DNA of 40,409 bases from Clostridia bacterium (GTDB lineage: Bacteria; Bacillota; Clostridia; UMGS1810). The position numbers were made by a program, and so were the translations under genes. The notes under the pieces are model-generated. The model had not been told where the DNA came from. It did no database searches and was given only the letters and a program-made list of their open reading frames with translations. Location: the NCBI GenBank assembly GCA_017397885.1, contig JAFQHQ010000137.1, forward strand, positions 1-40,409. Direction: 5' to 3'. Positions 1,615 to 9,916 of the stretch are shown in pieces (the first letter of the stretch is position 1; every line of letters starts with the position of its first letter).

Positions 1615-1620
1615 ATAAAA

Positions 1621-1727
1621 ATCTTCAGGGCGGGGTGCAATTCCCCACCGGCGGTAAAGCCCGCGAGCCTCTTTGGCTGATTTGGTGAAATTCCAAAGCC
1701 GACGGTATAGTCCGGATGAAAGAAGAT
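1621..1727 (+). ncRNA. FMN riboswitch (RFN element)
   Basis: The leader shows the RFN hallmarks: closing stem ATCTTC (1621-1626) with GAAGAT (1722-1727), the conserved AGGGCGGGGTG and CCCCACCGGCGGTA blocks, and a 3' block AGTCCGGATGAAAGAAGAT. FMN binding is known to favour the following terminator in such leaders. It sits directly ahead of ribU, so riboflavin uptake should fall when FMN is plentiful. Confidence 0.95.
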
Positions 1728-1746
1728 AGCATTTTTGTGTTATTTT

Positions 1747-8000: not shown

Positions 8001-9329
8001 TTAAAGCAAGGATGCCATATACATTGGAATATATAACATGTCAGCATCTTTTGCTAAATCTTTTGTATATACAATGTATTTATCTGAAATTCGACTTGAG
8101 AATTTTTTGCAAAATTCATCAAGAGACGTATGTGCCTTGTAACCTGACGATTTTACTTCGATTGGGCAAATCTTATTTTTTTGTGTGATAAGGAAATCAA
8201 CTTCGTAGTTGTGTTTTGATGTTTCATTCTGCCAACTATAATAAAATAATTCGTTGCCGTTTGCAGCAAGAGTTTGGGCAACTGCATTTTCGTACAAATA
8301 GCCAAGATTTGCAGAAAGCTTATCGTTTAAAAGCTTTTCGTAAAGTTCATTTTCTGTAAAATCTTTATCCTTAAACATCAGAGTGGTAAATAATCCTGTG
8401 TCTCCAACAAATAACTTGAATAGCTTTAAGTCTTTATTCGCAGAAAGACCGGAATTAGGATCGTTTGCACGATATGATATAAGAACAGTTTTTGAATTAA
8501 CCATTTCTGCCAACAACTCAAGAATGCTATCCGCTCTTTCATTTTCAAGAACACTTGACACCTGATATCTGGAAGCATTCTTGTTAAGTTGTGCCGGAAT
8601 TGCATCAAACAGCATAGAAATTCTTCCGGTGGGATCGATTTTTTTAAAATCATCATCGTAAAGCTTGAGAATATCCCTTTTTACCAGATCGACTTTTCTA
8701 AAATTGTTAGTCGTAATATATTCATTCACCGCTTGAGGCATACCGCCAACAAGCATATACAACCTGAAATCACGCATCATCTTTCTGCTCATAGCGTCAC
8801 CAAGCGGCATTTTAGCATCATATGCTTTTTTGAGTAGCGGAATTGTTGTATTATCTCCAAGCGCCCAGCGAAATTCTTCATAGTCCATCGGAAACATGCT
8901 GATTTTTCTTTCTTCGCTAGGAATGAGAATATTTTGCACATTTTTCTTTATGCTTATAAGAGAACCTGTTTCGATGTAATCGTAGCGATGGTCTTTTACA
9001 AGCACTTTAATTGCCTGTCGTGCAAGAGGACAGAACTGAACCTCATCAAATATAATCAATGACCTTCTTTCCACTAAGTCTACATGATATTGCAATTGTA
9101 ACTGCAAAAAGAAATAATTAAGGTCTGACATATCAAGGAATAGGTCCTTTACAGATTGTGGTGCAAAAGCAAAATCAATTAAAATGTAACTCTCATATTC
9201 ATTTTTTCCAAATTCCTCAACAACGGTAGATTTACCAATACGTCGTGCACCTTCTACAAGAAGCGCTGTATGACCGTCAGATTCCCTTTTCCACTCAAGT
9301 AGTTTATCATAAATTTTTCTTTTAAACAT
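8001..9329 (-). CDS. AAA ATPase with C-terminal DUF4143 domain
   Basis: A 442-residue ATPase of the widespread AAA_14/DUF4143 type. The Walker A motif is GARRIGKS (27-34), Walker B is SLIIFDE (Asp95, Glu96), and the sensor region reads IETGS. The C-terminal third contains YEVDFLI followed by PIEVKSS, the nuclease-like pattern that typifies DUF4143. Such proteins are common, often in accessory regions or beside toxins, and their biological role is largely unknown. The start is backed by GAGGTG 5 bases upstream. It has its own consensus promoter overlapped by a duplicated motif, and it sits in a patch bracketed by repeats near a tRNA gene, suggesting acquisition. Confidence 0.88.
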   Translation of the reverse strand: MFKRKIYDKLLEWKRESDGHTALLVEGARRIGKSTVVEEFGKNEYESYILIDFAFAPQSVKDLFLDMSDLNYFFLQLQLQYHVDLVERRSLIIFDEVQFCPLARQAIKVLVKDHRYDYIETGSLISIKKNVQNILIPSEERKISMFPMDYEEFRWALGDNTTIPLLKKAYDAKMPLGDAMSRKMMRDFRLYMLVGGMPQAVNEYITTNNFRKVDLVKRDILKLYDDDFKKIDPTGRISMLFDAIPAQLNKNASRYQVSSVLENERADSILELLAEMVNSKTVLISYRANDPNSGLSANKDLKLFKLFVGDTGLFTTLMFKDKDFTENELYEKLLNDKLSANLGYLYENAVAQTLAANGNELFYYSWQNETSKHNYEVDFLITQKNKICPIEVKSSGYKAHTSLDEFCKKFSSRISDKYIVYTKDLAKDADMLYIPMYMASLL

Positions 9330-9424: not shown

Positions 9425-9615
9425 TATTCTCAAATATCTTTAAAAATTATATTTCAGAGTTTTGCTATATCAAAATATGACACGCCTTAAACAAAGAAAA
9501 GGGATTTTGCCCCACAGTTGAAGATGAAAAATTGTGGTCAAACTCGTTTTTTTGACACTTTTTTAGACAAATCAAAAACCTCAGAAACCGCTTGGTTACT
9601 GAGTCTTAAGGTGGT

Positions 9616-9778
9616 CGGGATAACAGGATTCGTCTTGCTTCGCAATACGACCTGCTTGACGACCGTGAGTTCTGCTTCGCATCTCTCACAGTACCCGTCT
9701 GCGCACTACTCCGCTAAAAAACAATCCACCGGATTGTTTTTTTTAACACTCCGCACCTTCTCAAGGTTCGAATCCTGT
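9616..9778. mobile_element. Short tRNA-derived element with inverted ends, MITE-like
   Basis: The left end CGGGATAACAGGATTCG (9616-9632) is identical to the 3' end of the tRNA-Pro gene in the same orientation. The right end AGGTTCGAATCCTGT (9764-9778) is identical to its T-arm in the opposite orientation. Together they give a 10-base perfect inverted repeat (9623-9632 with 9769-9778). Inside are several hairpins, for example around AACAATCC/GGATTGTT at 9720-9737 and GTGAG/CTCAC. No protein is encoded. The remainder of 9430-9826 holds no gene I can support. Confidence 0.5.
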
Positions 9779-9786
9779 GTAAATGA

Positions 9787-9825
9787 AAAAGCTCCAAGTC
9801 ACACAAATGTGTAACTTGAAGCTTT
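9787..9825 (-). terminator. Terminator of tRNA-Pro
   Basis: Read on the minus strand, AAGCT-CAAGT-ACACA pairs with TGTGT-ACTTG-AGCTT with single-base mismatches between blocks, and is followed by TTTTCATTT. It begins directly after the tRNA 3' end. The right-hand 23-base repeat (9795-9817) lies inside it. Confidence 0.75.
9795..9817. repeat. 23-base repeat, right copy
   Basis: Matches 7148-7170 at 22 of 23 positions in the same orientation. It sits next to the tRNA-Pro 3' end, a typical integration position, although it also forms the tRNA terminator. Confidence 0.6.
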
Positions 9826-9826
9826 A

Positions 9827-9900
<74 letters not shown>

Positions 9901-9916
9901 AATCCAAACGCAAAAT

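Follow-up and report, generated by a model that had tools for sequence, protein, structure and literature searches.

The element downstream of tRNA-Pro(CGG) in the window, the 40,409-nucleotide stretch of clostridial DNA that was analyzed, belongs to a family of units of about 200 bp which, judging from their sequences, are probably mobile cassettes, non-autonomous and non-coding, with the T-arm and 3′ end of tRNA and tmRNA genes as their insertion sites. The units have one order of parts, lie on the same strand as the tRNA or tmRNA gene, carry ends that match the local tRNA, form arrays and differ between relatives by the gain or loss of one unit. An initial annotation of the window had proposed either a non-autonomous mobile element with tRNA ends or a structured RNA cotranscribed with tRNAs. 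The former is the better fit of the two because of the many copies with the same interior, their local tRNA ends and one filled and empty pair of sites; of the latter, the conserved fold was found on the tRNA-sense strand, and cotranscription itself is putative. Beyond that annotation, the ends vary with the tRNA, tmRNA genes are also used, arrays form, and unrelated cores share the same end rule.

On the minus strand, which is the tRNA-sense strand, the parts of the window copy follow in the order tRNA-Pro, terminator, inverted T-arm (anti-T-arm), structured core and direct repeat of the tRNA 3′ end (Table 1). The initial annotation had described a 17-base repeat of the tRNA-Pro 3′ end; the repeat is present as an exact direct repeat, and its length is 18 nt. 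The 15 reversed bases of the T-arm (AGGTTCGAATCCTGT) and the 10-base perfect inverted repeats at both ends (ACAGGATTCG and CGAATCCTGT) were found as described, and the distance to the intact tRNA-Pro gene, given as 50 bases, was measured as approximately 47 nt. The interior had been read as a chain of hairpins encoding no protein, in agreement with the stable folding of both strands (−60.6 kcal/mol, z −4.2, for the minus strand and −52.6 kcal/mol, z −4.0, for the plus strand) and with the spurious look of the sole ORF across the element, which has 98 aa and a TTG start. The terminator-like hairpin T1 was also found behind the orthologous tRNA-Pro of genome G001.

Table 1. Features at and near the tRNA-Pro(CGG) element, with positions in the window
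Feature	Position	Strand	Description
tRNA-Pro(CGG)	9826..9901	-	Intact gene without CCA (ends ...TTATCCCGATAAAGC)
T1	9785..9825	-	Intrinsic-terminator-like hairpin and T-run; spacer between tRNA and element
Anti-T-arm	9764..9778	-	Exact 15-nt copy of the tRNA T-arm in inverted orientation
P2	9756..9766	-	Hairpin CCTTGAGAAGG, overlapping the anti-T-arm; family-wide covariation
P3, upper part	9716..9744	-	A-tract/stem/T-tract hairpin; terminator-like in both directions
P4	9654..9699	-	GACG-GGTAC-stem-GGT-CGTC-AAGC; most conserved part; lower stem covaries
P5	9630..9653	-	Hairpin with tip GCGAAGC
Distal direct repeat	9615..9632	-	18 nt, exact copy of the tRNA 3′ end at 9827..9844
CCA	9612..9614	-	Directly after the distal repeat; neighboring tRNA-Pro gene lacks CCA; read from sequence
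T2	9574..9604	-	Second terminator-like hairpin, unrelated to T1, beyond the distal repeat
AAA_14/DUF4143 ATPase gene	8001..9329	-	Just past the element, same direction as the tRNA
FMN riboswitch	1617..1731		RF00050

By BLAST, the genome of the window contained 8 matches to the element, the window copy included, several of which adjoin Pro(CGG), Pro(TGG), Trp, Lys and Ala tRNAs. Searched as an exact pattern, GACGGGTAC-N-GGTCGTCAAGC was present 6 times in this genome (reversed-pattern control, 0), in 7 of 60 genomes in a search of relatives and, across the named genome collection, in 83 stretches, the majority of them from clostridial gut MAGs. A covariance model was built from 59 cores of type 1 (the names of types 1 to 4 were coined in this analysis) and gave 9 matches in the same genome and at least one match (E ≤ 0.001) in 72 of the 391 class genomes; copy numbers per genome in this class survey are lower bounds because at most 8 candidates were scored in each. 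Homologous covarying cores were present in 48 of 222 sampled genera, and 3 of 398 genomes in a phylum-wide sample were positive (G000, G174 and G673, the last from another class). Weak covariance matches were read at 18 loci, two of them uninformative (L176 and L184), and mostly had the same anatomy with a different P4. One carrier is Subdoligranulum variabile TSDC17.2-1.1 (record OY725879.1), with an element behind tRNA-Arg(ACG) (E = 2.6e-9). A plasmid collection yielded one record with a relative, possibly a mislabelled chromosome; the search of a phage collection found none, and the 3 matches in viral contigs were all chance-like, leaving no phage carrier among them. The covariance models of Rfam 15 had 0 matches in positions 9560 to 9830 up to an E value of 10, and at seven related loci tRNA alone reached the gathering score. 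No description of such a tRNA-anchored arrangement was found in the open-licence full-text literature.

Genomic position was counted for 89 distinct pattern matches in loci L027 to L112, of which 67 passed a strict filter. Nine of the 22 removed are likely real (L036, L042, L052, L063, L073, L077, L095, L096 and L104); the other thirteen are chance-like, mostly in other phyla, and none has an upstream tRNA. A same-strand tRNA was located 108 to 144 nt upstream of 42 of the 67 strict elements, representing 18 anticodons, and within 600 nt of 6 more. For the remaining 19, of which 7 lie at contig starts, no tRNA was called, and in no case was the sole tRNA on the opposite strand. Ten elements without a called tRNA, nine from the group of 19 plus L063, were read by eye. 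Three were preceded by what we take to be tmRNA 3′ ends, identified by eye and not by program, and six by tRNA 3′ parts without a 5′ half (five clear, L076 weaker). The latter mostly begin near the anticodon loop and give the impression of a tRNA split by a larger island. At L051, no tRNA or tmRNA context explains the element; with this exception the sites were limited to tRNA and tmRNA 3′ ends and not dispersed through extragenic DNA. Copies linked to tmRNA were also present in the genus of the window.

Of 51 elements collected for end analysis, 49 had a usable distal end. In 34 of the 49, the first base of the direct repeat corresponds exactly to tRNA nt 59; the window copy, whose repeat corresponds to tRNA nt 56 to 73, belongs to the minority with a longer repeat. 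The anti-T-arm extends to nt 51 in 27 elements and to nt 54 in 14. In 32 of the 49, its match to its own tRNA exceeds that to 95% of the other isotypes, in a test that is blunt because T-arms are alike. When genomes G000 to G002 were pooled, the direct repeat was found at 15 of 91 tRNA loci versus 113 of 7,722 for other-isotype arms, and the anti-T-arm at 12 of 91 versus 178 of 7,722. The inverted ends follow the local tRNA and are not element-specific, and the further copies with the same interior that the initial annotation had proposed to look for are many, each ending in the sequence of its own local tRNA. The terminators before and after the unit were near-identical in 19 of the 49 elements, intermediate in 2 and unrelated in 28. 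A non-encoded CCA after the distal repeat was seen in the window copy only and was therefore rejected as proof of an RNA intermediate; since the other CCA-less tRNAs that were read have CCA-less distal repeats, the CCA in the window may reflect an older, CCA-bearing gene. At the distal end of L285, the T-arm of the displaced tmRNA end is inverted (GAGAATTGAACTC and then CTCGACTCCA) and is followed by a copy of the first terminator, a configuration for which recombination within the T-arm is possible.

In the core, P4 has the general form N4-GGTAC-stem-GGT-N4′-AAGC. Its lower stem pairs at 4 of 4 positions in 97 of 102 elements, against a mean of 55 and at most 66 after shuffling (6 of 108 elements without the pattern were left out), through variants that include GACG/CGTC, GTCC/GGAC, GTCG/CGAC and GACC/GGTC. 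Double changes were found at 14 of 17 core pairs among 114 distinct sequences, for which the covariation score was 0.435 versus 0.130 shuffled and at most 0.103 slid, a score favored because the alignment was fitted to the same structure. In 107 of 108 elements the fold of the tRNA-sense strand is better than that of its complement, and this strand uses U-G pairs, at one P4 position in 44 of 114 sequences; selection therefore probably acts on this strand, in the form of RNA or of single-stranded DNA. In P3, the A and T tracts are kept while the remaining stem varies. In the tRNA-Trp element at L104, approximately 60 bp of foreign DNA is present within the P3 hairpin.

Movement was assessed from ortholog comparisons with one genome per species. 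The tRNA-Ala locus of G000 differs from that of G001 by exactly one additional unit of 185 bp, with flanks matching at 96% upstream and 87% downstream (1.1 kb). This was the one filled and empty pair obtained by the search for empty sites that the initial annotation had proposed. The “empty” site in G001 retains an anti-T-arm, so it may represent loss through recombination between repeats of approximately 70 bp and not a naive target. The Pro(CGG) locus of G001 was rejected as a clean empty site: T1, the anti-T-arm, P2 and the start of P3 are kept before homology ends, and the locus reads as a truncation or rearrangement. Behind tRNA-Arg, a yicC-based comparison showed a loss of tRNA synteny. 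The elements occur patchily at the orthologous tRNAs of three congeners. In G006, the cores behind tRNA-Leu(gag) and tRNA-Ser(gga) are 94.9% identical, each with the ends of its own tRNA, and the fact that Leu, Ser and Arg tRNAs there are all followed by near-identical cores argues against a single att specificity per lineage. For 108 elements, the nearest core was behind another anticodon in 40 cases and the same anticodon in 29, with 39 unassignable. Tandem arrays occur with like and with unlike cores; some expand by near-identical units, and in the tmRNA array of G002 the first core is only 65% identical to the second. At tRNA-Lys(ctt), the tRNA-proximal unit is of type 1 in G000 or type 4 in G002, and the distal type 2 unit is common to both.

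Types 3 (tRNA-Glu and tRNA-Arg) and 4 (tRNA-Met and tRNA-Lys) follow the same end rule as type 1. Type 2 consists of a hairpin with GCTGCCGGTGGCAGATGAAG and an inverted copy spanning up to nearly the whole tRNA; at Asn and Lys loci these copies had alignment scores of 54 to 82 in 8 of 10 cases, with 18 and 20 for the other two and 16 to 29 for controls. By exact pattern, type 2 was found in 10 of 391 class genomes, 8 of which also carry type 1 (Fisher p = 3e-5); of the two genomes with type 2 only, G070 is a chance coding match. At L244, L248, L262, L268 and L284 (tRNA-Lys and tRNA-Asn), an inverted near-whole tRNA occurs with the GCTGCCGGTGGCAGATGAAG hairpin or a near variant and a degenerate direct tRNA copy, and a type 2 element is in tandem at tRNA-Lys(ttt). 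Type 3 at L276 (tRNA-Glu, G002) and L250 (tRNA-Arg, G001) has GCGAGGAAGTACTCTTGGGGTGCTCGA in common and forms 196-bp tandem units at tRNA-Glu. The complement of type 4, at L209 (tRNA-Lys, G002) and L205 (tRNA-Met, G001), bears the GTCCGGTGGAC hairpin loop of type 1. At L254, tRNA-Arg(acg) of G001 is followed by a 1.3-kb cassette with a barnase-like RNase (PF00545) and barstar (PF01337), bounded by direct repeats of approximately 42 nt of the tRNA 3′ end with no integrase between them. At L081, CTAAACCGTTCGGCTCTTCC and a terminator are repeated between groups of ORFs, among them an orphan type 2 element, and the locus looks like a larger cassette array.

For the insertion of mobile cassettes, we favor recombination at the T-arm palindrome, catalyzed in trans. 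The palindrome would be the recognition site, with the joint between nt 58 and 59, and the tRNA 3′ end, often with its terminator, would be duplicated on insertion, which would leave the tRNA intact and displace the old 3′ end to the far side. Newer cassettes would then be nearest the tRNA, and the recombinase may recognize the folded strand, as RNA or single-stranded DNA. Since the shared rule lies at the ends, the insertion route must read the tRNA 3′ end. Among the points against this explanation, simple target duplication does not predict the 28 of 49 unrelated terminator pairs, and, to our knowledge, a classical integrase does not adapt the ends of its element to every new tRNA. The unit of approximately 200 bp has no real ORF and encodes no integrase, no autonomous partner transposon was within reach of the fetched loci, and no candidate for the inserting enzyme was found. 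A more far-reaching and tentative proposal, which we consider rather unlikely, is a new class of mobile element with target-templated ends, in which the anti-T-arm of a folded transcript or single strand would serve as a guide, pairing across nt 58/59 with the T-arm of any tRNA or tmRNA and directing the non-coding core to insert at that point, and types 1 to 4 would share this route; if so, tRNA genes would be the leaders of cassette arrays.

It is unlikely that the units are instead resident cis-acting RNAs. The read-through tRNA trailer would then be a switch, with the anti-T-arm pairing with the upstream T-arm or the distal repeat to control tRNA maturation or termination, and such a host-useful RNA would be copied between tRNA loci by recombination. 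This would account for the location on the tRNA strand in every assigned case, the strong core covariation, the stabler tRNA-sense fold (107 of 108), the A and T tracts of P3 kept amid a variable stem and the fit of the anti-T-arm to its own tRNA (32 of 49), but it sits poorly with the patchy occurrence at orthologous tRNAs of three congeners, the many unrelated anticodons plus tmRNA, the terminator that separates the tRNA from the core, the arrays, and the fact that unrelated cores have these ends too.

Template switching during replication seems a quite improbable origin. The terminator hairpin would prime a snap-back copy of the tRNA, a switch back would give the direct copy, and the cores would be passengers of gene conversion. 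Neither the homologous covarying cores in 48 of 222 genera nor the fixed 58/59 joint is explained in this way, although inverted copies do begin directly after the terminator, the near-whole-tRNA inverted copies behind tRNA-Asn and tRNA-Lys scored well above controls at 8 of 10 loci, and arrays grow by near-identical units.

Very doubtful is tRNA-primed reverse transcription, by which the 18-nt repeat (nt 59 to 76) would be a copy of a primer-binding site renewed in each round, as in retroviruses; the ends would always match the tRNA used because the repeat is copied from the tRNA primer. Retroviral primer sites correspond to the 3′ 18 nt of the tRNA, and plus-strand copying stops at m1A58, according to an excerpt of one source (PMC13191261). 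The start of the direct repeat at nt 59 in 34 of 49 elements, the identity of the 59 to 76 boundary with the primer site in that excerpt, and the CCA borne by the window repeat and absent from the gene are consistent with this route; the CCA-less distal repeats of other CCA-less tRNAs are not. The m1A58 methylase family PF08704 was above the cut-off in 0 of 30 element-bearing genomes, with weak sub-cut-off matches in 7, versus 7 of 14 controls. Because a block at A58 is required, this weakens the explanation, and the version with a stop at m1A58 lost support (PF08704 below the cut-off in 30 of 30) and is kept as a low rival. The cassettes resemble retroviral primer-binding sites, as described in that excerpt, in the 18 nt of the tRNA 3′ end (PMC13191261) and differ from them in that the repeat is DNA beside the tRNA gene itself and in the carriers' lack of PF08704 above the cut-off. 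A chance rearrangement of tRNA-Pro pieces, which the initial annotation had reserved for the case of no further copies, is ruled out for practical purposes by the further copies with the same interior (9 covariance-model matches in the window's genome), copy number, covariation and ortholog evidence all being contrary to it.

Integrative elements that target tRNA genes, such as islands, IMEs and satellites, use tyrosine recombinases at tRNA 3′ ends. The putative cassettes are similar in their insertion at the tRNA 3′ end, restored tRNA, far-side direct repeat, tandem accretion, and filled and empty orthologous sites (tRNA-Ala of G000 and G001, the empty one keeping its anti-T-arm). The differences are the size of approximately 200 bp, the absence of any gene or integrase, the inverted T-arm inside and the presence of the same core behind many tRNAs with its ends rebuilt each time. 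MITEs and other non-autonomous transposons are short, non-coding and hairpin-rich, with inverted ends proper to the element. The cassettes share these features except that their ends come from the target tRNA; they were also seen at tRNA and tmRNA genes only, and no autonomous partner was found at the fetched loci. REP and REPIN elements of RAYT (Y1) transposases are short, folded extragenic repeats with strand-specific structure, a description that also suits the cassettes; REP elements are dispersed, whereas the cassettes are confined to tRNA and tmRNA 3′ ends as units of approximately 200 bp. Integron cassette and CRISPR arrays likewise have a fixed leader anchor and target-like repeats between units, and at one locus here two genomes have the distal unit in common but not the one next to the tRNA; unlike genes or spacers, however, the units are homologous non-coding folds with no ORF inside.

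We know of no transposition route that would explain how a cassette could refit its ends to whichever tRNA it inserts behind. If the mobile cassette explanation is right, the search for the enzyme becomes a concrete problem, and the family would be a compact example from nature of how DNA can insert at tRNA genes and leave them unbroken. Some of the clutter that follows tRNA genes in gut MAGs would also be explained, and tRNA 3′ ends in many gut Clostridia would anchor arrays of protein-free folded cassettes.
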